Source of the DNA: Planctomycetota bacterium
Lineage (GTDB): Bacteria > Planctomycetota > Planctomycetia > Pirellulales > Pirellulaceae
Assembly: GCA_026692905.1 (NCBI GenBank)
Contig: JAPLNL010000047.1
Span: forward strand, 1 to 64,000
DNA: 64,000 nt
Direction: 5' to 3'
The notes under the pieces are model-generated. The model did no database searches. It saw nothing but the letters and a program-made list of their open reading frames with translations, and was not told the origin of the DNA. Positions 49,387 through 63,784 of this stretch are shown one piece after another. How positions within the stretch are numbered: the first letter of the stretch is position 1; each line of letters begins with the position of its first letter. Both the position numbers and the translations under genes were made by a program.

Positions 49387-50208
49387 ATGTCATTTTTTCT
49401 TGCCCCCGTTAGTAACCGTCTTTTCGGGATCTGCTTGGCTTTACTAATTGAAAACCTACCGTTTCCCGGACCGGCTTTCGCTCAGGAACCCGACCAACCG
49501 GAACGCACCGAATCTGAGTCAAAGAACCCAGAGTTGGTCCCGTTGCTTCACGATTACGACGAGGCGATTGAAGTAGCTAAGAAACTCGATAGGCCCATTT
49601 TGATAGTGCTTGGAGCGGAATGGTGTGCGCCATGCAAGCAGCTTGAAAAGGAGCTGGAACTGCCAACCGCCGAAGTTCTCTTTCGGAGATGGGTTGTGGT
49701 CAAAATCGATATCGATGAGGAAGTTGCCTTGGCCAAGGAATGGCAAGTCAACTCGGTTCCTGCCTTTCGAATTCTGGGGATCGATCAGGAGGTTTATGCG
49801 AGCAATGAAGGTTTTGGCGGTCTCAAAAAACTTGTGGCATGGCTCGAGGAGAACTTCGAAGCGGTCAACCCGAAAACGCAGAGGTTTCTTCGCGAAGACA
49901 AGCCGGTCGATTCCGAAATCGTGATGGAATGGATACGCATGTTGCGAGATAAGAGACCGAGCAGTCGCAAGCTTGTGATCGAAAGGCTGTCCAAAAACAA
50001 AGACCTTTCCGCAAGGCCCGTGATTGAAACGCTAGCAGCAGGAAATCTGTCCCAAAAGTTAGGTGCATTGGAAATACTTGAGAAATGGTCCGCCCCAATC
50101 GCTGGTCTTGACCCATGGGAGCCATATACAATCAGTAAAGAGCGATTGGAGTTGCTCAGCCGTTGGCTGAGTGGCGTTGGCCAATCGTTATCGGCGGGGC
50201 CAGATTAA
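49387..50208 (+). CDS. Exported thioredoxin-like protein
   Basis: A 273-residue protein with a signal peptide (LFGICLALLIENLPFPGPAFAQ) and a thioredoxin fold at about 55-160: DRPILIVLGAEWCAPCKQLEKEL with the redox-active WCAPC, VVVKIDIDEE, and the cis-Pro in WQVNSVPAFRIL. The last 110 residues form a helical extension (VIERLSKNKDLSARPVIETLAAGNLSQKLGALEIL), similar to a HEAT-like repeat. It probably acts as a periplasmic thiol-disulfide protein. It is followed by a REP-like array and then the ExbD gene; an operon is possible but the array interrupts the spacing. Confidence 0.9.
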   Translation: MSFFLAPVSNRLFGICLALLIENLPFPGPAFAQEPDQPERTESESKNPELVPLLHDYDEAIEVAKKLDRPILIVLGAEWCAPCKQLEKELELPTAEVLFRRWVVVKIDIDEEVALAKEWQVNSVPAFRILGIDQEVYASNEGFGGLKKLVAWLEENFEAVNPKTQRFLREDKPVDSEIVMEWIRMLRDKRPSSRKLVIERLSKNKDLSARPVIETLAAGNLSQKLGALEILEKWSAPIAGLDPWEPYTISKERLELLSRWLSGVGQSLSAGPD

Positions 50209-50209
50209 T

Positions 50210-50342
50210 CTAGCACGACGCGCAAGCTAGTGAATTGCTGGTCGTTTTCACTAGCTTGCGCGTCGTGCTAAGGCAGCTCGTTTTCACTAGCTTGCGCGTC
50301 GTGCTACGGCAGCTCGTTTTCGCTAGATTGCGCGTCGTGCTA
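50210..50342. repeat. REP-like repeat, one forward and three reverse units
   Basis: Forward unit at 50210-50234; reverse units at 50247-50270, 50283-50306 and 50319-50342, with an exact 36-bp period and the same spacer (MGGCAGCTCGTT). The last unit has CGCTAGATTG. The first two units form an inverted pair. It occupies the space between the thioredoxin-like gene and exbD. Confidence 0.88.
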
Positions 50343-50362
50343 AGGCAGGAATTCGGTAAACG

Positions 50363-50785
50363 ATGGCATTGCAAATCAAAAAAGGTCGGGCGCTCGATTC
50401 GCTCAATTTGACACCACTCATCGACGTGGTCTTTTTGCTTTTGATCTTTTTCTTGGTCGCAACCCGCTTCGCTCAGGATGATCGCGAATTGCCGGTGCTA
50501 TTGCCATCAGCGGCGAGCGCGGTCCCCATGACAACGGAGCCCACGGAATTGGTTGTCAATGTCGATGCGACTGGGCAGTACATGATTTTTGGTGAACGGA
50601 TGTCGCTGGACAAAGTCGAATCCATATTGCGGCGTTCGGTTGCAGACAATCCAATCAATCAAATGGTTATCATTCGCGGCGACCGCAATGTCGCATTTCA
50701 AGCGGTCGTTTCGGTTATGGACATTTGCAACAAAATTAAAGTGCCCTCCTACAAGATTTCCACGGAAGCGGGAGCTGGATCTTGA
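50363..50785 (+). CDS. ExbD/TolR-type biopolymer transport protein
   Basis: A 140-residue inner-membrane protein with one N-terminal helix (LIDVVFLLLIFFLVATRF) that carries the functional Asp21 of the proton path. The periplasmic domain (DRELPVLLPSAASA; VRGDRNVAFQAVVSVMDICNKIKV-like) is the usual ExbD/TolR fold. Normally it works with an ExbB/TolQ channel; none is directly adjacent, and the nearest candidate is at 55403. The stop overlaps the next gene by 4 nt, which links it to the membrane-anchored cyclase-fold protein. Confidence 0.92.
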   Translation: MALQIKKGRALDSLNLTPLIDVVFLLLIFFLVATRFAQDDRELPVLLPSAASAVPMTTEPTELVVNVDATGQYMIFGERMSLDKVESILRRSVADNPINQMVIIRGDRNVAFQAVVSVMDICNKIKVPSYKISTEAGAGS

Positions 50786-53589
50786 ACGGAATGCGGCCAA
50801 ACAAAAACTCAGGCCTTTGGGCAATGGATGCGGCGTTGTTGTTGTTTGGACTAATGGTCCTGCTGTTGGTGTTGAGACTACTGCGTTTTGACGATCCCAA
50901 CCCGCTTTCCAATGCATGGTTGTATCTGCTGGGTGTTCCAACCATCCTGATCGCCACCTCGATGATCACGCGAGTTCTAGCCAACGATTGGATCGAGAAG
51001 TCAATTCAATTAGGATTTCTAGTGAGTGTTGGGCTGCACTTGCTATTCATGGTCTTTGCCGTCAATCTGGTTTTGTTTAGCAGTTATTTCCCTGCTGAAA
51101 TTCAAAAAGTAGCCGTCGTGACCGCTTCGCAAAAGTCGACCATGCCGCAGTACTTTCAACCAGCCAACGCAATGATGCAGTCGCGGCCTGATTACTTGAA
51201 GCCGGTCAAAACAGAACAGAACGAAGCTCAGCCAGCGTTAGATCCAACGCAACGCGCCGAAGAGTCGGCCAAACTAAGTCTTGATGTTATCAAGGACGAG
51301 ATCAAGCCGACGCTGAGCGAGAAGCCATTCAATAAACCGAGGCGAGAGGCGTCACCGAGCCAACCGTCCATTTCCTCGACGGCCGAAAGACTGGAACGGC
51401 CAGACACTACAAAGTCATTGGACCGTCAACAAAATGAAATTGACATTCCGAACTTACAGGCGTCACAGCCAACACCTTCTCTCGAAGTAAAAGCGGCCGC
51501 AGCCGAGATGAACCGCGGCGATATCCAATCTCCAAACAGTAACTCGCTAGCTGAAATGCCCAAGGCGAAAATTGAAATCGATAGCCGAGCGAATCGAGGG
51601 ACAAAGGCCGGCGTCCCGCGCAGCGATGTGACTCGCGAAGAGAACCGGAGGAACCGTGAGTTGGAAAAGTCCTTGAATCGGGCAGCGAGCGACTTGCCAG
51701 AACGCCCAAGTCTATTGCAGCGTGGAACGCCAGACAAGTCGACCCTCGACAAGCCGATGGCGGCAAACGTTCCGATACCGAAACTCGGGACTCTTTCTGC
51801 CAAAACCGCGTCCGAGAACCCATCGGAACGCAATACCGACGTGCGTTCGCGTTCCAACGATTCTCGAGCATCCACACGTCAAAGTGTTGAGCTAGCGAAC
51901 CTAAATGGAGTTTCTGGTTTGGAGCCAAGTTTAGGTCGAACCGCGCCAAATCTAGGTCAAGGCTCTTCGGCCAAAAGCAACACTTCGGCCATTTTATCGG
52001 ACAACACGTTTCTCGCCGATCCGCGATTAGCAATGAATGATCTATCGGGTGGCCGTCGGATGGACCGTCAATCGGGTGAATCGCTAACCGCCCCCACCTC
52101 GGGCCAACCTGTGCCGAATGTAGGTGGCACGACCCCACAACCGGCTTTTAGTACAGACGGCGATCTATCGCAAGCGATGTCCTCGCGAAGTGATTTGCAG
52201 AAGTCGGATATTCGCAAGCAATCATCCGGTGGTAGGAACCTTGGCGGAAAAAGCAATCAAGAAAACTTGAGCCCAGCGGTCGGTGTTCCATCCATCGAGT
52301 TCGGTCGAGACGCTTGGGCTGCACCGCTTCTCGATGCACCTCGCAAAGGACTCGATCCGATCAAACGAGAAATCGCTATGCCTGAGATCCGAGAGGCAGA
52401 TATCACGATCGATCGCTTGCGTCGTCCCGAAATAGGTGGCCCAAAGATTCCAAGCTCAGCGGTACCAATTTCCGTTCCCGCTTTTTCTCAACGGCTTAAA
52501 CGCAATCGTGAACAAGAGGATTCGGCGGCGGAGCTGGGACCTCTTGGACCGCAGACGGAATTGGCCATCGAAAACGGTCTCGAGTTCTTGGCCAAATATC
52601 AGAGGGCGGATGGTTCGTGGCACTTGGAGGATTTCGGTGAGCAGGTGGATATCCGAAGCGAAACGGCAGCAACCGCTTTGGCTTTGTTGTCCTTTCAAGG
52701 AGCTGGGTACACACATCGACAGTTCAAATACGAAAAGACCTGTGGACGAGCGTTGGCGTGGATGATTCAGAATCAACGTCCCAATGGTGATTTGTATGTT
52801 CGCACCGATCCTAAATCGGATGGCAATGCGTGGCTGTATAGCCATTCGATCGCAACCTTAGCGTTGTGCGAAGCGTATGGCATGACACAGGATGAGTCCA
52901 TCAAGCAGAACGCTCAGAGCGCCATCAATTTTTTGATACAGAGTCAGGACCCACAAGGTGGTGGTTGGCGTTACCAGCCGAAAATCGGATCCGACACCAG
53001 CGTGACGGGCTGGTGTATGATGGCGTTGAAAAGTGCCGAGCTATCAGGCTTGCAAGTATCCCAGGAGTCTTACCGACGCATATCAAAATGGCTGGAAGGC
53101 TCGCAAGCATCTGAGAACCAAAAGTACCTTTATCGTTACAACTGGCAGGCATCGGACACACCTGCCACGCGACACGGCCGAGTCCCGACCCCGGTCATGA
53201 CCAGCGTGGGTTTGTTGATGCGTTTGTATCTCGGCTGGCGACGCGACAATCCGGATATGCAGCGAGGGACCGATTGGCTGGTCGAGCGGCTTCCGTCTGA
53301 GGGTACTGTACAAAATCCACAGCGAGACACCTACTACTGGTACTATGCAACTCAAGTCATGTTTCACATGGGAGGCGATCGCTGGAAAACTTGGTACGGC
53401 AGTCTCTATCCCATGCTGATTCGGACACAGAAAAAGAATGGGGAATACGTCGGCTCTTGGGAGCCAAACGGTCAAATTCCCGACGCATGGGGGCGTTTTG
53501 GCGGTAGACTCTATGTCACAACCCTAAATTTGTTATCCTTAGAGGTGTATTACAGGCATCTACCGATCTACGATGCGACTGCCGATTGA
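50782..53589 (+). CDS. Membrane protein with C-terminal squalene cyclase/prenyltransferase-fold domain
   Basis: A 935-residue protein. Three membrane helices lie in the first 100 residues (ALLLFGLMVLLLVLRLL; WLYLLGVPTILIATSMI; FLVSVGLHLLFMVFAVNLVL). Residues 110-580 are polar, Ser/Pro/Arg/Asn-rich and probably disordered. From about 590 an alpha/alpha barrel with QW-like repeats follows: NGLEFLAKYQRADGSWHLEDFG, WMIQNQRPNGDLYV, INFLIQSQDPQGGGWRY, and DTSVTGWCMMALKSAELSG. The catalytic DXDD of hopene cyclases is not evident, so a binding or complement-like role is likelier than cyclisation. Coupled by 4 nt to exbD, as in other planctomycetes. Confidence 0.82.
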   Translation: MNGMRPNKNSGLWAMDAALLLFGLMVLLLVLRLLRFDDPNPLSNAWLYLLGVPTILIATSMITRVLANDWIEKSIQLGFLVSVGLHLLFMVFAVNLVLFSSYFPAEIQKVAVVTASQKSTMPQYFQPANAMMQSRPDYLKPVKTEQNEAQPALDPTQRAEESAKLSLDVIKDEIKPTLSEKPFNKPRREASPSQPSISSTAERLERPDTTKSLDRQQNEIDIPNLQASQPTPSLEVKAAAAEMNRGDIQSPNSNSLAEMPKAKIEIDSRANRGTKAGVPRSDVTREENRRNRELEKSLNRAASDLPERPSLLQRGTPDKSTLDKPMAANVPIPKLGTLSAKTASENPSERNTDVRSRSNDSRASTRQSVELANLNGVSGLEPSLGRTAPNLGQGSSAKSNTSAILSDNTFLADPRLAMNDLSGGRRMDRQSGESLTAPTSGQPVPNVGGTTPQPAFSTDGDLSQAMSSRSDLQKSDIRKQSSGGRNLGGKSNQENLSPAVGVPSIEFGRDAWAAPLLDAPRKGLDPIKREIAMPEIREADITIDRLRRPEIGGPKIPSSAVPISVPAFSQRLKRNREQEDSAAELGPLGPQTELAIENGLEFLAKYQRADGSWHLEDFGEQVDIRSETAATALALLSFQGAGYTHRQFKYEKTCGRALAWMIQNQRPNGDLYVRTDPKSDGNAWLYSHSIATLALCEAYGMTQDESIKQNAQSAINFLIQSQDPQGGGWRYQPKIGSDTSVTGWCMMALKSAELSGLQVSQESYRRISKWLEGSQASENQKYLYRYNWQASDTPATRHGRVPTPVMTSVGLLMRLYLGWRRDNPDMQRGTDWLVERLPSEGTVQNPQRDTYYWYYATQVMFHMGGDRWKTWYGSLYPMLIRTQKKNGEYVGSWEPNGQIPDAWGRFGGRLYVTTLNLLSLEVYYRHLPIYDATAD

Positions 53590-53868
53590 ACTTGACAATT
53601 GTCAGTTCTGGAGAAAGATAGTGGGGCGGAGGCGAGCGGCAAGTTCCGATTTTCCTAGCACGACGCGCAAGCTAGTGAATTGGATTCATTAGCTCGCGCG
53701 TCGTGCTAGGGGTAGTTTTAAGCCGCTTGTTTTAGGACATTGATTGAGGGATTGGGCCACGGCTTGGCGGAAGCCTTTCCCTCGAAAACGAAAACACGAT
53801 GCGGCTTTTCTTCCTTTGAGAAGACAAGTCGCAATTTTTTTTAGCGGTTTTGGCTACAGGAGAGCACG
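53590..53868. other. Gap between cyclase-fold gene and greA
   Basis: This 279-nt stretch has no gene. It holds an inverted REP-like pair (below) and, just before greA, TACAGGAGAGCACG with an AGGAG ribosome binding site. Confidence 0.8.
53628..53709. repeat. REP-like repeat, inverted pair with upstream extension
   Basis: Copies at 53655-53679 and 53685-53709 form a near-perfect 25-bp stem with a 5-nt loop. GGCAAGTTCCGATTTTC precedes the first copy, as the GGCGGGTTCCGATT extension does at 44850 and, more loosely, 28907. Confidence 0.88.
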
Positions 53869-54345
53869 ATGAGCGACTACGTACCGATGACTCAAGAAGG
53901 GTACAACCGTATCAAAGCAGAGGTATTACGTCTCGAAAATGAAGAGATGCCCCTAATTTCGGAAAAGATTGCCGAAGCCCGCGCGGAAGGTGACCTCAAG
54001 GAAAATGCCGAATACCACGCGCAGCGAGAAAACCAAGGGATGCTGCAATCCAAAATCAATGCATTGAAAACCAAGCTCAGTCAAGCGACCATCATCGACA
54101 CATCGACGCTACCACGCGATTGCGTCGGCTTCGGTTCGACTGTGATAGTCAAGGATCCCTGGGGTGACGAGGAAGAGTACACGCTCGTGGGTGCTGGCGA
54201 CGAAGACTACGAAGTGGGCCGCATTCTCTCCAGCAGTCCTTTTGGCATGGCTCTTACTGGAAAAAAAGTAGGTGACAAAGTCGAGATTCAAGCCCCGCGA
54301 GGCAATCTCAAGTTCGAAATCCTCTCGATTGAATTCAAAGATTAA
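53869..54345 (+). CDS. greA: Transcription elongation factor GreA
   Basis: A 158-residue factor that rescues backtracked RNA polymerase by stimulating transcript cleavage. The N-terminal coiled coil has [31 protein letters not shown], with the acidic tip residues DLKEN and EYH. The C-terminal FKBP-like domain follows ([46 protein letters not shown]). Length is normal. AGGAG lies before the ATG. The stop overlaps the next gene start by 1 nt (TAATG), so the two are coupled. Confidence 0.95.
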
Positions 54346-55031
54346 TGGCAAGTAAAACTGAGGCTGTTCGAGGCTCGGGTGGCGAGCAAAAAGATGTTTC
54401 GCTTGGGCCGGCTTGCCTGATCGTGGTGGTCATCTTGGCGCTATGCCTGAGCATAGGCGTGATCGCGATGGCTGCTATGATGTCCGGAAATCAAGGGAAG
54501 CGGGCGGCTTATTCCGTTCGGGAACAAATCATTCCCTGGGTTGAGCAATCGTCGCTTAGCAAAACCGATCGCCAAATCATTGTCGAACGTCTCACCAACT
54601 TGTCGGACGATATGGAACGTGAGGAACTCACGACGCGACAATTGTCACGTTTGGTTTTGAGATTGACCGACAGCCCAATCCTGCAATGGGGAATCGTTGA
54701 GCAGCTCATTCAAGCGGCATCGGGTTCTAGTATGACCGATGTCGAGAAGAGTCAGTTTCGGGCGGGATGCGATCGATGGCTGCGATCCGCTTCGGAGGGA
54801 AAGTTGTCGCTGCAAGACATGGAGTTTGCCGTGCAGAATGTTGCGACCAAGGACCAACGTTCCGGGCGACTTTCGATCAGACCAGATGTCGATGTCGAGG
54901 GCCTACGCGAATTCCAACGCCGCATGACGACCATATCCGACAAACATGAAATGACTAGTGAGCCGTTTGACAAGAGTGTTTCCCAGGTTTTCACGGCTGT
55001 GATCGAAGACGCGCTGTCCAAGAAAGATTAA
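54345..55031 (+). CDS. Hypothetical single-pass membrane protein
   Basis: A 228-residue protein with a short cytoplasmic N-terminus, one membrane helix (LGPACLIVVVILALCLSIGVIAMAAMM, about 20-46), and an exported helical domain (WVEQSSLSKTDRQIIVERLTNLSDDMEREELTTRQLSRLVLRL, and onward). I recognise no family. Its start overlaps the greA stop by 1 nt. A perfect hairpin 30 nt after its stop likely closes the greA transcript. Confidence 0.75.
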   Translation: MASKTEAVRGSGGEQKDVSLGPACLIVVVILALCLSIGVIAMAAMMSGNQGKRAAYSVREQIIPWVEQSSLSKTDRQIIVERLTNLSDDMEREELTTRQLSRLVLRLTDSPILQWGIVEQLIQAASGSSMTDVEKSQFRAGCDRWLRSASEGKLSLQDMEFAVQNVATKDQRSGRLSIRPDVDVEGLREFQRRMTTISDKHEMTSEPFDKSVSQVFTAVIEDALSKKD

Positions 55032-55402: not shown

Positions 55403-56914
55403 ATGTTCGATACATTTGATAGCAAAACTAGCTTACGCCAACGGGGGCAATGGACTGCTGTGCTGTTTCCAAAAAGAAATTCACCGAATCCAAGTTTCCA
55501 CGTTTCCATCGCGCCATCGGTCGTTGTCGGGACTGGAATTTGCGTCGCATTTTATGGTGCGATCTTTGCAGGTCCATTGGACTATGCGATGTTGCGTCGC
55601 TATTGCCTGTGCCACCCGGTGGCCATTGCAACGGCGGGTCTCTTTTTCGTAGCCATCGTTGCGCTGTCCTCGAAGTGGTTTAACGCATCTTTGCAGCAGC
55701 GAAAAGTCCGGCAAGGGGGCTTAGCTCTCGAAGAGATTTCCGCATCGCAGGCTGAAACGCCGGAAACGGATTCAGGCGAAAAGAAGGCGGTTTGGTTTGA
55801 TACACTTTGGCGAACTCAGAGCACCACGGTTGGCGACAGTTGGCTTGGCCAACGCGTTACCGCCGTCTTACAGCGCCAGCTCAAGCGAAAGAACACAAAA
55901 CACCTAGATCAGGACATTGCCGAACTTGCCGAACGCGATGCCGACCAACAGCATGACAGCTATGGGCTCATTCGTATTGTAACTTGGGCGATGCCGATGC
56001 TTGGTTTCCTAGGAACCGTTTTAGGGATTTCGGATACCCTCGGTCAAATGGATGCCAAGGCGTTATCGAGCGGTTCACAGGATGCTATGAATAGTCTGAC
56101 CGCCGGCTTGTACGTCGCGTTCGATACGACCGCCATCGGCTTGGTGCTTACCATGGTCGCGATGTTCGTTCAATTTGCCGTGAATCGGACGGAGCTCGCG
56201 TTGCTCTCTGCGATCGATGGCAAAGTCTCCGAAACGTTGCAGCTATGTTTGACCGAACAGGAGAAGCAGAACGACACTCGCAACGTCGAGTCGGCTCTCC
56301 ATCACGTCACGCAGGAGCTCTTAAAATCGGTGCAGCAAATTGTTCAAACACAGAGTGAGCTCTGGGAGCAAACGATATCGGCTGCCCATTGCCACTGGCA
56401 AAATCTAACTTCAACCTCCGCAGAAACAATTCAGTCGTCCATGGCTGCTGCAATCGAGGCCGCTTTAGGAAAACACGACTCATCGCTAAACCACCACACG
56501 GAACAATTAGCCCGAGTTCAAACCGAGGGTGCAGTGCTGATCGATTCTCGTTGGCAACAATGGCAAACAACTCTGTCGGAACAAACGCGGGCTGTCTATC
56601 ATCAACAGAGAGAAATGTCCGCGCAGACCGCTTTGCTCAACATGCTCATTGAAAAGCATGATGCGATTCGCGATATGGAGAAACCGCTGCAAGCCACGCT
56701 AGAGCGACTGACCGATATCGATCGATTTCATAATGCGGCTGTTTGTTTGACGGAGGCCGTGGCAGTCCTTGGGACTCAAATGGAACGATATGGCTATCTC
56801 GGCCGCCAGCCGGTGCGCCGTCGGTCCGCTGAGCCTGTTGCTGAAGTTTCTGCTAGCGAGACCGCTGAGTCGGAAGTGCCCACCATATTGCCGCTAACGA
56901 GGCAAGCAGGATGA
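55403..56914 (+). CDS. MotA/TolQ/ExbB-type proton channel with long cytoplasmic tail
   Basis: A 503-residue membrane protein. Two helices near the N-terminus (SVVVGTGICVAFYGAIFAG; HPVAIATAGLFFVAIVALSS) are followed by a cytoplasmic loop and the PF01618 core at about 190-275: MPMLGFLGTVLGISDTLGQM, then LTAGLYVAFDTTAIGLVLTMVAMFVQF with the conserved threonines of the proton path. Residues 280-500 form a long helical tail (QELLKSVQQIVQTQSELWEQTISAAHCHWQNL). That tail is much longer than in TolQ or ExbB and recalls ZorA-type proteins, but no defence genes are present. The stop overlaps the next gene by 4 nt. Confidence 0.85.
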   Translation: MFDTFDSKTSLRQRGQWTAVLFPKRNSPNPSFHVSIAPSVVVGTGICVAFYGAIFAGPLDYAMLRRYCLCHPVAIATAGLFFVAIVALSSKWFNASLQQRKVRQGGLALEEISASQAETPETDSGEKKAVWFDTLWRTQSTTVGDSWLGQRVTAVLQRQLKRKNTKHLDQDIAELAERDADQQHDSYGLIRIVTWAMPMLGFLGTVLGISDTLGQMDAKALSSGSQDAMNSLTAGLYVAFDTTAIGLVLTMVAMFVQFAVNRTELALLSAIDGKVSETLQLCLTEQEKQNDTRNVESALHHVTQELLKSVQQIVQTQSELWEQTISAAHCHWQNLTSTSAETIQSSMAAAIEAALGKHDSSLNHHTEQLARVQTEGAVLIDSRWQQWQTTLSEQTRAVYHQQREMSAQTALLNMLIEKHDAIRDMEKPLQATLERLTDIDRFHNAAVCLTEAVAVLGTQMERYGYLGRQPVRRRSAEPVAEVSASETAESEVPTILPLTRQAG

Positions 56915-59022
56915 GTAGCAAGCGACGAGGAGAGTCAACTGCTCCTGCATTGTTTCCATTCCTTGCGGTGTTGCTTTGTACCATTGGAGCGCTAGTGTTA
57001 ATTCTGGTGCTCACCGTTGCCAATTCGCATGCATCGGCGAAACGGGAAGTAGAGAGCGAGATCAGCGAGGTTGCGGAAACAACGAAGGAACTGGAGATTG
57101 TGGCTGAAGAGTTGGACGTGCAGCGAGATGAACTGAAGGCCAGAGTCGAGCGCCGCCGCCGTGACTTAGCCGATATCGAGGACCACATATCGCGTCTCAA
57201 TCAAACGTTGGAGAACCTAATCTCCAAAATCGAGCGCATACAGACTCAGTCCAGCCAAACCGAGGAAGAGCGTTCTGAAAAAACGGATCAAATCGTCAAA
57301 TTGAAAACGGAAATCGATCAGAAGAAACGGGAACTGATCGACGAAATCGAGAAACAAAAGAAGCGAAAGCCTGCCTTTGCGGTCATCCCATATGTTGGAG
57401 CCAATGGCACGAACCGACGCCCAGTCTACCTGGAGTGCACCAAGGAAGGAGTGATCGTTCAGCCAGAGGGACTGCTTATCTCATTGAATGATTTAAGACC
57501 GCCCTTTGGACCAGGCAATCCGCTCGATGCTGCGCTGCGTGTATTGCGTCTAGCCTACCAGCAGAAGGATGCGACGTTTGGAGTTACGCTGCCACCCTAT
57601 CCTTTGCTCATCGTTCGGCCTGACGGAATTCAAACCTACGCATTAGCCAGAGAAGCGATGAGTGGCTGGGATGATCAATTTGGCTACGAGCTGGTCGAAA
57701 AAGAAATGGAACTGAAATTCCCAACTAGCCCCGCCGGTCTCAAGGAACAGCTAACAAGCACCGTTGAGCTAGCCAAACGCCGCCAACAAGCGCTTATCGC
57801 GGCCTTGCCCCGTCGTATTAGCGCTCCTGACGGAGAGGACTCATGGGATGGAATCGATGCATCCAGTTCAGCGGCAAGCGGTGCAGGCAATGGTGACCAT
57901 CCTGCAGGTGGCTCTAGCTTCGCCTCGAACGATAATTCTCAGCAGGAATGGAAACTCGTTCAAGGGATAGCCAACTCCCAAATAGCTGGCGCAATCCAAC
58001 GAAACGGAATGGCTTCGCAAGATGCGGGCCAGGTGGGCGCGGGAACCGGAGGCCCCGTAGGTACAGGTCTTCCGCCATCCGCAGCTACCCCTAACTCGTT
58101 TAGCTCGAGCGGCAATATGCTGCCTGGCCAGTTTACCGTTTCCAACAACTCAAATGGGGCTGCGTCAGGTGCCAATATGGGTACACAAAAGGCAGCAGGA
58201 GCAGGTTCTGAAAAAGCCAACAACGAATCCATTGAAACGGGAACAGCAAACGCCAATCAAAACGTTGCCAATAACAGCGTGAATAAAACCGGGGATGTCG
58301 GCGGTGATGTGAATGGTGCGAATGCGGCCGCTGACGGTAGTGCTTCCGGAGGTAGTGCTTCCGGAGGTGGTGCTTCCGGTGGTGGTGCGGGAAGCAACTC
58401 GATGGTAAATAACGCATCAGGCTCAACCAACAGTTCCGCGACGTCAAATACTCCTGCACCTCCTGGCGCCAACGCGTTCTCGTCCGGGACAGCAACCGGC
58501 GGCGCAAGCGGCATGGCCTCAGCAGGAGGCCCACCTCAGGGGCAAGGCGACCCTAACGCTAGCCCCAATCTATCGCTTTCCATGAACCAAAAGCCAGAAA
58601 GTTCGCCAGTCAAAGCAAAACATGTGCGGCCCGAAGGAGATGTTAAACCGATCTCGGTCAGTGCTGGTCATGGTTGGGCTGCATCGCGAGCAGAGGGAAA
58701 GGCTACTCCCGTTTCACGACCAATCAACGTAGTCGCTTTGAAGGATCGCTGGCTGCTGCGTTCGGATGTGGAACCAGGCAAATTCGAAGCCAATTTAACG
58801 ATGGAAGAGGGACCGCAGCAAGCGGGTGAACAGCTTGCTCTGGCGATGCGTAAGCGAGTGGACTCGTGGGGAATTGCCGTCGTTGGTGGATACTGGTCGC
58901 CATCACTAACGATCGAGGCCGCCAGCGATGCGCAGCAAAGCGTGGCGAGGTTAGAACGGCTACTTGAAGGTAGTGGTGTCGAAATCAAAGTGGTCCCGTT
59001 GACTCTCCCCAACCGTCGATAG
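56911..59022 (+). CDS. Membrane coiled-coil protein with Gly/Ser/Asn-rich region, motor partner A
   Basis: A 703-residue protein. One N-terminal helix (FPFLAVLLCTIGALVLILVLTVANS) is followed by a coiled coil at about 45-150 (EEVAETTKELEIVAEELDVQRDELKARVERRR-like). A globular domain spans about 150-280 (AVIPYVGANGTNRRPVYLECTKEG; YPLLIVRPDGIQTYALAREAM; FGYELVEKEMELKFP). Residues 310-580 are Gly/Ser/Ala/Asn-rich. A second small domain ends the protein (VNVVALKDRWLLRSD-like; DSWGIAVVGGYWSPSLTIEA). The helix lacks the Asp of ExbD/MotB. It is coupled to the channel gene by 4 nt. Family not recognised by name. Confidence 0.8.
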   Translation: MSSKRRGESTAPALFPFLAVLLCTIGALVLILVLTVANSHASAKREVESEISEVAETTKELEIVAEELDVQRDELKARVERRRRDLADIEDHISRLNQTLENLISKIERIQTQSSQTEEERSEKTDQIVKLKTEIDQKKRELIDEIEKQKKRKPAFAVIPYVGANGTNRRPVYLECTKEGVIVQPEGLLISLNDLRPPFGPGNPLDAALRVLRLAYQQKDATFGVTLPPYPLLIVRPDGIQTYALAREAMSGWDDQFGYELVEKEMELKFPTSPAGLKEQLTSTVELAKRRQQALIAALPRRISAPDGEDSWDGIDASSSAASGAGNGDHPAGGSSFASNDNSQQEWKLVQGIANSQIAGAIQRNGMASQDAGQVGAGTGGPVGTGLPPSAATPNSFSSSGNMLPGQFTVSNNSNGAASGANMGTQKAAGAGSEKANNESIETGTANANQNVANNSVNKTGDVGGDVNGANAAADGSASGGSASGGGASGGGAGSNSMVNNASGSTNSSATSNTPAPPGANAFSSGTATGGASGMASAGGPPQGQGDPNASPNLSLSMNQKPESSPVKAKHVRPEGDVKPISVSAGHGWAASRAEGKATPVSRPINVVALKDRWLLRSDVEPGKFEANLTMEEGPQQAGEQLALAMRKRVDSWGIAVVGGYWSPSLTIEAASDAQQSVARLERLLEGSGVEIKVVPLTLPNRR
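58336..58392 (+). repeat. 15-bp minisatellite in the Gly/Ser-rich region
   Basis: Units GGTAGTGCTTCCGGA at 58336 and 58351, GGTGGTGCTTCCGGT at 58366 and a partial unit from 58381. It encodes GSASG/GGASG repeats and adds residues in frame, so length can vary without harm. Confidence 0.85.
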
Positions 59023-59034
59023 GATTATCTGAAC

Positions 59035-60039
59035 ATGAGCAAGCGGCGAAGCGAAGATGCTGCCATCGGCGAAGATTGCTTCTTGGATACGATTGCGAAC
59101 CTCGTTGGGATCCTAATCATCTTGGTCGTCATCGTCGGTTCGCGCAGCCATGCAACCGCTAAACTAGCGATCGAACAAGAGCTCCAAAAGAAAGTCGAAC
59201 TACTCGAATCCCCTGCATTGAAATCCCAGCAGCTCGACCTAGATCTTCAAAAGCAAGCCGAAGAACTTCGCAATTACGATATGGAGGTCATGTATCGCGA
59301 TTCCGAACGGATGGAGATTATGGACAAGGTAACCATTGCCGAACGCATTGTCGAAGAAGAACTTCAAAGTATCGACGAAGCCTCTCGCGAGAAAATCGAA
59401 GTCGAGCAGGAGATGAGCGAGCTTGAAAAGCAGCTAGCCAATCTACTCAACCAACAAGGTGAAATTCAGTCTAACGAACCATCGACCACGGTATTGCAAC
59501 ATCTACCGACTCCGATGGCAAAGACTGTATTTGGAAAAGAACTGCATGTCATGATGCGAGGTGGACACGTGGCAGTGATTCCATGGGATAGGCTGATCGA
59601 TGCTCTAAAAAGCGAGGCGCGACGCTCGGCGGAACGCAATTCTCAGAAAGACCGCTTTGTCAATCAACTGGGCCCAATCGATGGGTTCTTGATGACCTAT
59701 GGCTTAAAGAGCCAAAGCGGGATGATGACCAATGGGACATCCACTCGGCTTGCCAGGACGGTTGAATTGGAGAAGTTCGAATTGGATCCGACCAGTGATG
59801 TCACCATTGAAAGTATTGCAGAGACTCTCGGGACGGGAGGGCGTCTGCGGCTCGAACTTGCTATGTGCAAAGCCCAACACACGACGGTAACAGTGTGGGT
59901 CTATCCAGATAGTTTCAACGAGTTCCGGACGCTCAAGGAACGGCTCTTTGTGGAAGGTTTTCTTTGCGCTGCAAGGCCGTTGCCATTCCATGTTCGAATC
60001 GGTGCTTCGCCGCGCGGCTCGGCTAGCACGGCTCAATAA
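59035..60039 (+). CDS. Membrane coiled-coil protein, motor partner B (Asp before the helix)
   Basis: A 334-residue protein with CFLDTIANLVGILIILVVIVGSR as its single N-terminal helix; Asp18 at the start of the helix resembles the proton-path Asp of ExbD and MotB. A coiled coil follows at about 45-145. The C-terminal domain (HVMMRGGHVAVIPWDRLIDALK; TTVTVWVYPDSFNEFRTLKERL; CAARPLPFHVRIG) shares its layout with the globular domain of the preceding protein, so the two are probably distant paralogues. It begins 12 nt after that gene. A role as stator subunit of the TolQ-like channel is inferred. Confidence 0.8.
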   Translation: MSKRRSEDAAIGEDCFLDTIANLVGILIILVVIVGSRSHATAKLAIEQELQKKVELLESPALKSQQLDLDLQKQAEELRNYDMEVMYRDSERMEIMDKVTIAERIVEEELQSIDEASREKIEVEQEMSELEKQLANLLNQQGEIQSNEPSTTVLQHLPTPMAKTVFGKELHVMMRGGHVAVIPWDRLIDALKSEARRSAERNSQKDRFVNQLGPIDGFLMTYGLKSQSGMMTNGTSTRLARTVELEKFELDPTSDVTIESIAETLGTGGRLRLELAMCKAQHTTVTVWVYPDSFNEFRTLKERLFVEGFLCAARPLPFHVRIGASPRGSASTAQ

Positions 60040-60706
60040 TGGGTTCGCAGACGCCATCTGAAAATCGTGCGAAGACGAAACACTCGCAAAGCCGTGACAC
60101 AGTGAATTAGCCGTTGGCTGATCGCCTTGTCATTACCCGTAACTGTTTTGATTTTCTCCCCTCTCCCCGAATCGGCAACGCTGTGAAGCATCTCAGGACG
60201 GCTGGGGCTTGCCCCTCCGTCCGCAGCTTTGGAGTTCTAGATTCACGCCGCTCGACCGCGCACCCCCGGATTGGTCGCACCGCCTTTGGCGGTGCGACCA
60301 ATCCGGGGGTCATTTTCATCACGCGTACCCTTAGAACACCAAAGCGGTGTCCGGTCGGGACAAGCCCGATCCGGACAAAGCGACAAAGATAAAAAGTCCA
60401 CGTCGGCAAAAGTGACTTGCCAAAATCCGCACCTCTCCGATGCGACTGTTGAAACGTAGGGAGAGAAAATCGTATTGCATTGCGACCCCTGACTGCGATC
60501 TATTTGGCGGAACTCGTCCGAGATGATCGAGCCCCAAGGTGGGGCACACTTGCTGAGAGTGACTTGTGCCCCACACCGAGTTTCTATTTTCGTGATGTCA
60601 ATTCGTCTGGCGACGGTTAAAATACAATGGTCCCGTTAACCACGTTTGAGGGACAAAACGGCGATGTCGCCCCATCGCAGCCCCGCCGAGTTTCCCTCCC
60701 ACCTCA
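60040..60706. other. 667-nt non-coding region with a long palindrome
   Basis: No gene is seen. The central part, 60190-60375, is an imperfect palindrome (separate entry). The remaining sequence before the cytochrome gene shows no clear promoter; a GAGCCCCAAGGTGGGGC hairpin lies near 60529-60545. Confidence 0.75.
60190..60375. repeat. 186-nt imperfect palindrome with 23-bp perfect core
   Basis: The core pairs 60262-60284 with 60288-60310 perfectly around a TTT loop (GGATTGGTCGCACCGCC in the left arm). Flanking arms also pair imperfectly: GCTTTGGAGTTCTA at about 60225 with TAGAACACCAAAGC at about 60330, and GGGCTTGCCCC at about 60205 with GGGACAAGCCC at about 60358. The whole could fold as one long hairpin in RNA or as a cruciform in DNA. 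Confidence 0.8.
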
Positions 60707-60721
60707 TTGAGAATGGTTCGC

Positions 60722-63700
60722 ATGAACGTATCGATGGAAGACACATCGTGCTTTTTGAAGTCAACCGTTTTGTTCTTGACTTTGCAAATGGGTATTGTGG
60801 CCGGAGGTGAGCCGACGATCGATTTTCGACGCCAGATTCAGCCGATCCTATCCGAACATTGCAACCTTTGTCACGGTGAGGATCCAGGCACACGGCAAGG
60901 CGGTTTGCGATTGGATGTCGATGCGGATGCATACAAAGGTGGTGAATCTGGTTCGCCTGCTATTCAACCCGGCCATTCCGCGAAGAGTCTATTGATCGAG
61001 CGTATCCTATCTTCTGACAAGGACTCGGTCATGCCACCACCCAATGCAAACAAACCTCTCAACGAAGAGCAGAAGAAACTGTTCCGCCAATGGATCGATG
61101 AGGGAGCGAAGTACGAATCGCACTGGGCTTTTACTCCTCCAGTCCAAAAACCTCTACCGGTTGAAACGAAGAATCCGATCGACGCGTTCGTAAAGAACCG
61201 GTTACAGCAAGCGGGTTTCTCACTCACAACGCGAGCTACGCCAGCCACCCTCGCTCGCCGAATTCAACTCGATACGATCGGTGTCGTACCGTCACCTGCC
61301 GAAACAACCTCATTCGAAAAGACGCCAATCGAAACTCGCATTGACGAACTGCTCGCTAGCGAGCGGTTTGGAGAGAAATGGGCACGGCACTGGCTAGATG
61401 TGGCTCGCTATTCAGACACGAATGGCTATGAAAAAGATATGCGCCGAGACCAATGGGCATGGCGAGATTGGGTGATTGGAGCCATGAATCGCGACATGCC
61501 CTACGATCAATTTGTGATCGAACAAATCGCGGGCGATCTGCTCCCCAATGCCACCCAGGATCAAATGATTGCGACAGGATTTTTACGAAACAGCATGATC
61601 AACGAGGAGGGAGCGATTGTGCCCGAGCAGTTTCGCATGGCCGAGATGTTTGATCGAATGGACTGTATTGGCAAAGGGGTACTTGGCTTGACTACGCAAT
61701 GCGTTCAGTGCCACACTCACAAATTCGATCCGATTACGCACGACGAATACTATGGCATGTTCGCCTACTTGAACAACTGCTACGAAGCGCAATCGCCAGT
61801 CTATGCACCTGAACAACTCAAAGCCGTTCAAGCAATTCGCGAATCGATTATTGTCCTTGAGAATCAACTTAAGAAAGACAATCCTGCTTGGGAGTCCGAG
61901 GTCAAGGCATTTGAAACCGACATCCTGAGCAAGCAGGCTGATTGGAAAACCGTTGCGTTTGACGATTTGAACAGCGTCAGCGGACTGAATCACCCAGCCA
62001 CGCAGACCGATGGTTCGATTTTGATGACTGGCCATTCGAGCTCAGACGTTTACATGATTGGCTCGCCCGAACTTGCTGGCGTTACTGGTTTTCGAATCGA
62101 AGTTTTGAACCACGGCGATCTGCCGTTGCGTGGACCCGGTCGAAACGCAAATGGTGGGTGGCAAATACACACGATCGAAATCAAAGTCCAAAAACCAGAT
62201 ACCAAAGAATGGGTGAAACTCAAGATTGTGAGTTCGACCGCCGACTTCTCAACGGCGGAGTCCAAAAGCGGCGATGGTAAACTCACTTATGGACCAGTTG
62301 CCAACTTGTTCGATGACAAGCCCGAAACGTTTTGGACATCGGACCGAGGCAAGGGACGGAGGAACCAACCGTCGGTGGCAGTCGCGGTTTTTGAGCAACC
62401 GCTTGATCTGCCTCCTGGAACCCGTTTCAAAGTCGAAATGCATATGGCCGACAATGTTGGCTGCTGCCGAATGAGTCTGACGAAGACGCCACAACCTTTC
62501 GCTCCTGCCTGCGATCATGCGGGAGTACTTGCAATGCGGAAGGTCGAGTCCGATCGAAATCAGGCAGACCGAGATGCCGTCTTTGCTTGTTGGCGAAAAT
62601 CGAAGCCAGAGCATCAGAGCATCAATGCGCAAATCGACGCGAGGTTTGATCAGATGCCAGATCACCAAACGACGGTATTGCATCTCGCTGAGCGAGAAAA
62701 TTCTGCAGCTCGTCCGACCCGTTTGCTTGATCGCGGCGAGTGGGACAAGCCCAAGCATGATGTTTTGCCGCACGTACCAAGGGCTCTCAATCCGATGCCT
62801 GACCAGCCAGATGGTGCCGCTAGTGGAACACCTGCTCGGCTGGCGTTTGCTCGTTGGCTAGTGGATCGGCGGTCGCCGCTCGCAGCTCGTGTCGCAGTGA
62901 ATCGAATCTGGCAAGCGATCTTTGGCGATGGGCTAGTCGAAACGTCGGAAGACTTTGGAACCAGGACGGCAACCCCAGAATATGCCGATTTGCTGGATTA
63001 CTTAGCAGTCGATTTTATGGAACATGGCTGGAGCCAGAAACATTTGATTAAGATAATTTTGATGAGTGAAACGTATCAGCAGAGTTCCGTCTTCCGCAAA
63101 GAGCTTATGGAACTGGATCCCAAGAATCGATTGCTTGGTCGCGGGCCCCGATTTCGAGTCGAGGCCGAAGTTGTTCGCGATGTGGCTTTGGCTGCATCTG
63201 GATTGCTGTCGAACAAGCTTGGTGGTCCAAGCGTTATTCCTCCGGTTCCCCAAAATCTGCTGAACTACAACTATGTTGTTCCTACGTATTGGACGGCTGC
63301 GACTGGTCCAGACCGATATCGGCGAGCAGTCTATGTCTTTCGCAAACGTTCGATGCCGGATCCGGTCATGGCAAGTTTCGATTCGCCGAACGGTGATTTC
63401 TCCTGTGCTCGGCGAGTTCGGTCCAATACTCCGTTGGCAGCGCTTACGGGGCTCAACGAAACGATCTTTGTTGAGGCGGCTCAAGCGATGGCGTTACGGG
63501 TACTCCGAGAAGGGGGCACGGACGATACAATGCGAACCGAATACGCTTACGTGTTATGCACTAGCCGCAAACCATCGGCGGGTGAGTCGTTGGCCATTCA
63601 AGAACTTCTGAGCGAACAGCGAAAGCGAATTGCAGAGGGTTGGCTCAATCCGCGAGAGATTGCGACGAGTGACCCAGCAAAACTGCCGCAACTGCCTGAC

Positions 63701-63784
63701 GGTGTGACACCTCAGGATGCAGCCGCGTGGACCATCGTTTCACGCGTATTGCTCAACTGCGACGAAACCCTTTCCAAGAATTAA
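60722..63784 (+). CDS. Exported cytochrome c / DUF1549 / DUF1553 protein (PSD1-type)
   Basis: A protein of about 1,020 residues typical of planctomycetes. After a signal-like segment (LKSTVLFLTLQMGIVAGG) comes a cytochrome c domain with one heme motif (HCNLCHGEDPG, part of FRRQIQPILSEH). DUF1549 follows (WARHWLDVARYSDTNGYEKDMRRDQWAWRDWVI; FDRMDCIGKGVLGLTTQCVQCHTHKFDPI, with a second CxxCH). DUF1553 makes up the C-terminal third (LAFARWLVDRRSPLAARVAVNRIWQAIFGDGLVETSEDFG; GPRFRVEAEVVRDVALAASGLLS). A sugar-binding-like insert lies between. It pairs with the DUF1501 gene 6 nt downstream. In-frame starts at 60707, 60713 and 60734 are possible. Confidence 0.92.
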   Translation: MNVSMEDTSCFLKSTVLFLTLQMGIVAGGEPTIDFRRQIQPILSEHCNLCHGEDPGTRQGGLRLDVDADAYKGGESGSPAIQPGHSAKSLLIERILSSDKDSVMPPPNANKPLNEEQKKLFRQWIDEGAKYESHWAFTPPVQKPLPVETKNPIDAFVKNRLQQAGFSLTTRATPATLARRIQLDTIGVVPSPAETTSFEKTPIETRIDELLASERFGEKWARHWLDVARYSDTNGYEKDMRRDQWAWRDWVIGAMNRDMPYDQFVIEQIAGDLLPNATQDQMIATGFLRNSMINEEGAIVPEQFRMAEMFDRMDCIGKGVLGLTTQCVQCHTHKFDPITHDEYYGMFAYLNNCYEAQSPVYAPEQLKAVQAIRESIIVLENQLKKDNPAWESEVKAFETDILSKQADWKTVAFDDLNSVSGLNHPATQTDGSILMTGHSSSDVYMIGSPELAGVTGFRIEVLNHGDLPLRGPGRNANGGWQIHTIEIKVQKPDTKEWVKLKIVSSTADFSTAESKSGDGKLTYGPVANLFDDKPETFWTSDRGKGRRNQPSVAVAVFEQPLDLPPGTRFKVEMHMADNVGCCRMSLTKTPQPFAPACDHAGVLAMRKVESDRNQADRDAVFACWRKSKPEHQSINAQIDARFDQMPDHQTTVLHLAERENSAARPTRLLDRGEWDKPKHDVLPHVPRALNPMPDQPDGAASGTPARLAFARWLVDRRSPLAARVAVNRIWQAIFGDGLVETSEDFGTRTATPEYADLLDYLAVDFMEHGWSQKHLIKIILMSETYQQSSVFRKELMELDPKNRLLGRGPRFRVEAEVVRDVALAASGLLSNKLGGPSVIPPVPQNLLNYNYVVPTYWTAATGPDRYRRAVYVFRKRSMPDPVMASFDSPNGDFSCARRVRSNTPLAALTGLNETIFVEAAQAMALRVLREGGTDDTMRTEYAYVLCTSRKPSAGESLAIQELLSEQRKRIAEGWLNPREIATSDPAKLPQLPDGVTPQDAAAWTIVSRVLLNCDETLSKN

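Follow-up and report, generated by a model that had tools for sequence, protein, structure and literature searches.

Background

In all ion-driven motors of the 5:2 type with solved structures that we know of, the B subunit is present as a pair of identical copies, both Asp-bearing, and how many carboxylates such a motor needs, and whether these must alternate, is a key question for the rotation model. Here, we describe a three-gene operon in the first 64,000 nucleotides (forward strand; hereafter the window) of contig JAPLNL010000047.1 from a planctomycete of the family Pirellulaceae (GenBank assembly GCA_026692905.1). It encodes a MotA/TolQ/ExbB-type channel protein, A, and two single-helix partners, B1 and B2, only the latter of which bears an Asp at the start of its transmembrane helix. 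We favour, at a probability of roughly 0.58, the reading that the operon encodes a 5:2-type ion-driven motor with a B1-B2 heterodimer as axle and one ion-binding Asp.

Among the described systems, ExbB-ExbD and TolQ-TolR resemble the trio in that A falls into the MotA/TolQ/ExbB family and the single-helix proteins B1 and B2 are encoded beside it. The transmembrane motif of ExbD is PFIDV, where B1 has PFL(A)V and B2 has FLD. Unlike these systems, the trio possesses two unlike B proteins, one of them Asp-free, a coil that separates helix from globular domain by more than 100 residues and a long tail on A. A long cytoplasmic tail is a feature of the channel protein ZorA of the Zorya system, the partner of which, ZorB, is a further point of comparison. 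ZorB is described with a conserved Asp that, in the 5:2 complex, faces a ring of Ser/Thr (PMC11890865). Zorya and the trio share a long-tailed channel and an Asp-bearing B partner, but Zorya has one kind of B, and the trio B genes occur without exception in the good genomes of the family (as defined below). As A scores 16.4 bits against the ZorA models (cut-off 500) and none of the PADLOC models, zorC, zorD and zorE included, is matched at E 0.01 by any of the six genes nearby, the trio is not Zorya, and the earlier statement that zorC, zorD or other defence genes are lacking nearby stands; ZorA and ZorB are also absent from the PADLOC hits listed for the trio (for B1, the best 25 of 41).

Two further systems combine one channel with two partners. 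AglR-AglQ-AglS of Myxococcus consists of one channel and two MotB-like partners, hetero- or homodimerization of which is unsettled, and AglQ and AglS are both described with an Asp (PMC9389320), so that, unlike the trio, Agl has no Asp-free partner. For the PVC group, tolQ loci with 'heterologous tolR-like' pairs, partly from planctomycetes, and paired vWA pore-helix proteins with an Asp in each monomer have been described (PMC12204202). These loci also place an unlike pair beside one tolQ-like gene, and the ExbB-ExbD-ExbD sets of the window genome are comparable, but in the trio one member is without Asp. Three loci of the window genome (L003, L004 and L006) contain such sets, of which two adjoin back to back on a single contig.

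Since unlike TolR-type pairs (AglQ/AglS; the PVC group) are already in print, the suggestion of an 'undescribed class' in the initial annotation, which was made from the sequence alone, was too strong. An Asp-free B partner is not described in the accessible portions of PMC7159879, PMC9389320, PMC12505986, PMC12204202, PMC11890865 and PMC6677748 or in the literature listings, the subscription literature lying mostly outside reach, and work with mixed subunits on one versus two Asp in MotB or PomB is not among the literature matches listed. As far as these searches go, the conserved blank partner with its lost Asp, and the family itself, seem new.

Two unlike partners beside one channel

A channel gene with two partners had been proposed at 55403-60039, and all three open reading frames are found there, head to tail on the forward strand: A (503 amino acids, aa; 55403-56914), the Asp-free B1 (703 aa; 56911-59022) and the Asp-bearing B2 (334 aa; 59035-60039). 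A and B1 overlap by 4 bases, and 12 bases separate B1 from B2. Each partner has a single N-terminal hydrophobic segment with Lys/Arg ahead of it (B1 residues 18-36, 56962-57018; B2 residues 16-34, 59080-59136), which together with the structure models bears out the proposed common layout of helix, coil and globular domain; in B1 a spacer and a second globular domain follow.

The asymmetry of the two transmembrane helices is strict. In 41 aligned sequences, an Asp at the helix start is present in 41/41 B2 and 0/41 B1 proteins. Asp14 (59074-59076) and Asp18 (gat, 59086-59088) of B2 are both invariant (41/41), the latter being the predicted ion-binding residue. At the position of this Asp, B1 has Ala19 (gcg, 56965-56967), likewise invariant (41/41), in the context FPFLAV (FPFMAV in one row), and the transmembrane segment of the window B1 contains no acidic residue at all, so that the initial observation of an Asp in the 334-residue partner only is extended to a fixed difference. 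That Ala19 stands at the Asp position follows from the gapless alignment of the transmembrane profiles of the two partners over 48 columns, which pairs FLD of B2 with FLA of B1 and Gly25 with Gly26 (P 2e-6, probability 79%; the hydrophobic make-up may inflate these values). The window genome does not generally use blank partners, as all ten of its ordinary ExbD proteins (10/10) possess the Asp.

That B1 and B2 are related partners is supported by profile comparison also beyond the helix in relatives of the window trio. In type II, one of the subtypes delineated below, the globular domains of B1 and B2 match with P 3e-7 (C-terminal half of B2) and 3e-6 (whole domain), and in type III with P 1e-4 and 1e-3, the P values of this main comparison of 55 pairs being uncorrected. 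Across types, the B1 domains match one another with P 4e-8 to 5e-9 and the B2 domains with P 8e-9 to 4e-12. The related stretches pointed out initially, VRPDG at B1 235-239 and VYPDSF at B2 289-294, are both present.

Evidence that B1 and B2 act together comes from the length of their coils, measured from the transmembrane Gly to the start of the globular domain in 41 genomes. Coil lengths range over 137-187 residues for B1 and 133-155 for B2, with a raw Pearson correlation of 0.78 between them. With independent contrasts on a tree of the non-coil columns the correlation persists (r 0.72, 40 contrasts; 0/5000 permutations as high; rank correlation 0.51), and r is 0.68, 0.56 and 0.48 upon removal of the strongest one, two and three contrasts. 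Neither the A tail (B1 coil, r 0.19, p 0.18; B2 coil, r 0.29, p 0.07) nor the B1 spacer (r 0.01 and 0.14) shows a significant relation to the coils. As equal coil length is a requirement of a parallel two-stranded rod, the co-variation fits a pairing of B1 with B2.

The assignment of A to the MotA/TolQ/ExbB family with an unusually long tail is confirmed by a match to Pfam MotA_ExbB (PF01618) with 47.7 bits (52 bits in the genome search) at a curated cut-off of 22.9, by four hydrophobic segments and by a C-terminal tail of about 245 residues past the last of these. Thr205 in the third segment (GFLGT; 56015-56017) and Asp241-Thr242-Thr243 in the fourth (AFDTT; 56123-56131) are invariant in 41/41 sequences, and all four are likely ion-path residues, located in the last two transmembrane segments. 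In Vibrio, Thr158, Thr185 and Thr186 of PomA and Asp24 of PomB are reported to be essential (PMC6677748); matching these sites to A and B2, we infer that Thr205 would be the counterpart of PomA T158. A search of A against solved structures gave nothing convincing, with two MotA chains at E 0.2.

AlphaFold models of B1 and B2 were built separately from 26 sequences each. The B2 model (mean pLDDT 80) displays helices at 13-112 and 115-146 followed by a mixed alpha/beta domain, and the B1 model (mean pLDDT 66, with a low-confidence spacer) helices at 17-112 and 118-151, a first alpha/beta domain at 171-261 and a second at 599-696, the long helix breaking at residue 112 in both. The predicted Gly/Ser-rich spacer was recovered as residues 301-590 of B1 (57811-58680), 75% of which are G/S/A/N/T/P/Q and most of which are of low confidence (disordered) in the model. 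A 15-base tandem repeat of 3.5 copies lies within it at 58336-58388. Profile comparison and model delimit the C-terminal globular domain of B1 as residues 590-703 (58678-59019), which is probably a repeat of the first one, judged from the similarity of their profiles (P 6e-5 and 7e-4).

Distribution and subtypes

Matches to B2 and B1 were obtained in 145 and 147, respectively, of 149 genomes of the family and, for each partner, in 107/107 of the good genomes, defined by a completeness of 90% or more and a contamination of 5% or less. B1 is matched most weakly in two genomes of 72-73% completeness (G034, E 6e-4; G041, 4e-17) and in G005 (4e-20), which with a partial protein also gives the weakest B2 match (2e-19). 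Gene order was read in about 15 to 20 kb around 40 chosen of the 145 B2 places, and the order A-B1-B2 on one strand is preserved in 40/40, which answers the suggested gene-order survey in favour of a trio kept together. The A/B1 junction is a 4-base overlap in 36 of these regions, an earlier-called B1 start accounts for three more, and one (L059) has a gap. Near relatives among the best 80 of 187 loci include records from Pirellula, Rhodopirellula, Rubripirellula and Roseimaritima, so that the window probably stems from a Pirellula-like planctomycete; type I B2 occurs in records of Rhodopirellula europaea and Rubripirellula obstinata.

In a sample of 392 genomes from the phylum, the B2 profile matched 59. 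Nine are from the same family (the window genome included), three (3/3) from other families of the order, 27 of 28 from the remainder of the class and 20 from outside the class. Among these 27 are G486, with a type II trio in the region read, and the atypical G518 (see below). Outside the class, 13 regions were read; trios of type II or type III are present in 12 of them and no such trio in L152, and type I was encountered in none of the 13.

The types were recognized in 93 regions, 89 of which contain both B1 and B2 (the four others being L135, L136, L152 and L310). Beyond what the initial annotation foresaw, there are at least three of them, one with Asp in both partners. The Asp of B2 is universal (type I, 57/57; type II, 11/11; type III, 21/21), while the B1 residue at this position is Ala in 55 and Thr in two of the 57 type I regions, to which the window belongs, Ser in all 11 type II regions, and Asp in 20 of the 21 regions of type III and outliers, the motif not being found in the remaining one (L308). 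The B1 transmembrane segment is acid-free in 54/57 type I and 11/11 type II regions, and the remaining three have a Glu at its far end. Aligned type II B1 proteins are about 270 aa long and without spacer, and those of types II and III alike are too short for spacer and end domain; several type II A proteins start with a zinc-ribbon-like stretch. One genome, G436, harbours all three types (L126, L153, L297), as does G129 by profile places (L072, C1:2778220, L143). Two outlying trios, L307 and L308, perhaps represent a fourth type, their readable partners displaying an SFLD motif with the Asp present.

In a tree of A (72 rows, 130 columns; III_L307, without motif, dropped and every second type I row below L118 omitted), type III forms one side of a branch (96/87) and type I is separated from types II and III (100/100); type II does not form one side of a branch, L309 standing apart. 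As the branch to the ExbB outgroup is very long, it does not fix the root, and the tree is as compatible with two losses of the Asp as with one. The extra acid in the fourth segment of A was considered as a substitute for the lost Asp of B1; there is no clean trade-off across types (type I, Asp in 57/57; type II, Asp in 8 and Asn in 3 of 11; type III, Glu in 12/21, Asp in 4/21 and none found in 5/21), although the acid may still act in this way.

A putative heterodimeric motor and its alternatives

The motor reading is built on gene order, conservation, the Asp asymmetry, the likeness of the transmembrane segments and the co-variation of the coils; from these we infer a 5:1:1 stoichiometry, an ion and its flow, rotation and a role of the trio in the envelope. 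Five A subunits would form the channel ring, and one B1 together with one B2 the axle. Only B2 would bind the ion, with Asp18 facing Thr205/Thr242/Thr243 of A, and B1 would provide the second, carboxylate-free helix. Both would run side by side into the periplasm as a parallel coiled coil ending in the related globular domains, and torque or push would travel along this rod, from which the flexible B1 spacer of about 290 residues and the second domain could reach the wall or the outer membrane; the long tail of A would act in the cytoplasm. The presence of the B genes in every good genome suggests a core housekeeping task in the envelope of Pirellulaceae and related planctomycetes, and as no match to TolB_N was obtained in the window genome, the role may be Tol-like. 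A single carboxylate facing five sites would be expected to bind an ion five times in each turn. More tentatively, and at somewhat less than even odds, a natural 5:1:1 motor with a single carboxylate may be at hand that makes five events per turn (72-degree steps) and not ten, in which the fixed asymmetry of an active and a blank helix would have allowed the blank partner to become a long force arm and the evolutionary series Asp (type III), Ser (type II) and Ala/Thr (type I) has been preserved.

Several observations weigh against a B1-B2 axle. Pfam ExbD (PF02472) is not among the Pfam hits of B1 or B2 up to E 1, and a search with this model in the window genome retrieves ten genes, neither B1 nor B2 among them. 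Foldseek with the two models finds no match in the PDB at E 0.001 or better (best hits, small-subunit ribosomal chains at E 0.02 for B1, and E 0.12 for B2). The kinship of the partners claimed initially holds for the transmembrane profiles and for the type II globular domains, but for the globular domains of the window-type pair the profile comparison falls short of significance (P 0.2-0.5). Several draft genomes have their best matches to B1 and to B2 on different contigs, adjacency being read in the 40 regions. A B2-like protein of G518 (L135 1406-2506) differs in its N-terminal segment, which lacks the Asp motif, and the 12 kb read there contain neither A nor B1. A type II B2 matching at E about 1e-100 occurs in nine genomes of one genus (g73), and in both places read (L136, L310) it stands alone, with neither A nor B1 beside it. 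Furthermore, each B could form a homodimer, and the B1 layout of helix, linker and end domain also fits a TolA/TonB-like arm.

In favour of the motor reading, a type II B1 is present in 7/7 of the g73 genomes tested (of nine; G384, G196, G525, G529, G328, G217, G373), far from B2 or on another contig, and A adjoins it in 5/5 loci read. The type II B1 profile is matched in neither G253 nor G518. Against Pfam, NCBIfam and PADLOC, B1 and B2 show coil-type or sub-threshold hits only, without a match to a curated family, and B2 finds no convincing relative among solved structures (best E 0.03, glia maturation factor). Globular-domain profiles have no significant tie to ExbD profiles except for the B1 end domain, the P value of which (8e-4) does not survive the number of comparisons. 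The order of strands and helices in both models is compatible with the periplasmic fold of ExbD/TolR.

The main competing explanation, which we consider unlikely, is that a B2 homodimer, with its Asp, occupies the A ring, while B1 is a force arm of the TolA/TonB kind on the side of the ring that reaches an outer-membrane partner. TolA and TonB, to our knowledge, have no pore Asp, and B1 with helix, coil, spacer and end domain has no pore acid either; the match in layout, TolA and TonB being described as helix, linker and C-terminal domain (PMC12204202), and the lack of a TolB_N match likewise speak for such an arm. A side arm does not, however, readily explain why the B1 transmembrane segment resembles that of B2 without a gap at the Asp position, why the coil lengths of B1 and B2 co-vary or why aligned B1 proteins of types II and III lack the length for spacer and end domain. 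The Asp in both partners of type III points to a pore-helix ancestry of B1, and a conserved His, as in the SHLS motif of TonB/TolA, is not seen in the B1 transmembrane segment (by eye in 41 rows, without a profile test).

Gene duplicates often specialize, and since B1 and B2 both resemble pore-helix proteins, A might alternatively participate in two assemblies, an active motor A5-B2(2) and an inactive A5-B1(2) that anchors or competes; we regard this as improbable, as coil co-variation, joint presence in good genomes and overlapping genes are easier to reconcile with one complex. Least probable by our estimate is that the trio is a former motor turned into a signalling or scaffold complex. The loss of the Asp in B1, the lack of experimental data in the sources found and the frequent location of type III relatives next to GAP1-N2/GTPase conflict genes would agree with such a fate, but Asp18 of B2 and Thr205/Thr242/Thr243 of A are invariant in 41/41 sequences, as expected if ions pass.

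Genomic context

The neighbouring genes of the window (49387-55028 and 60707-63781) encode, according to Pfam, a thioredoxin, an ExbD, a GreA and a PSCyt/PSD1 protein, two more being unnamed. The ExbD gene (50363-50785), the product of which has the Asp, has no MotA_ExbB match beside it, the nearest being gene A, and is overlapped by the gene of a 935-aa protein (50782-53589) that starts with membrane-like segments and resembles a terpene cyclase at its end (Pfam score just under cut-off). About 220 bases past B2, a palindrome with a GC-rich stem of 20 pairs (60263-60309) is terminator- or repeat-like. In 23/57 type I regions, a protein with an HTH_17-like N terminus (Pfam just under cut-off) is encoded on the opposite strand upstream of A (e.g. 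L073 3533-5362), and a second upstream protein in 16/57 has no Pfam match, so that no function can be read from the type I context.

Type III trios, on the other hand, often lie beside GAP1-N2, GAP1-M, DO-GTPase2 and GYF genes, as in the predicted GAP1-N2 GTPase-centric conflict systems. By blastp with the L143 proteins (E 1e-5; L143 itself counted, and short contigs making the counts lower bounds), the 21 type III regions include at least 13 with a GAP1-like gene (L143, L147, L149, L150, L294, L295, L296, L297, L298, L300, L301, L305, L306), at least 13 with its large partner, at least 9 with the GTPase and at least 7 with the GYF protein, and relatives of these four L143 proteins are found in 0/57 type I and 0/11 type II regions at the same threshold. 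Pfam identifies GAP1-N2 plus GAP1-M in L143 and L149 and DO-GTPase2 plus GYF_2 in L143. Planctomycete GAP1-N2 loci with GYF proteins already figure in the original description of the conflict systems (PMC7159879). As the words MotA, ExbD, TolQ and proton channel are absent from its main text (figures and supplements being outside the check), the link to a motor seems unreported there.

Significance

If the trio is a motor, its conserved loss of the Asp from one partner, together with relatives that retain it in both, would make the need for a second carboxylate, and for alternation, directly testable. At the same time, B protein families hitherto without a name are defined, which apparently fulfil a core role in planctomycetes. 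In addition, type III is associated with GTPase systems predicted to act against invaders, so that ion motors and immunity may be connected a second time, beside Zorya.

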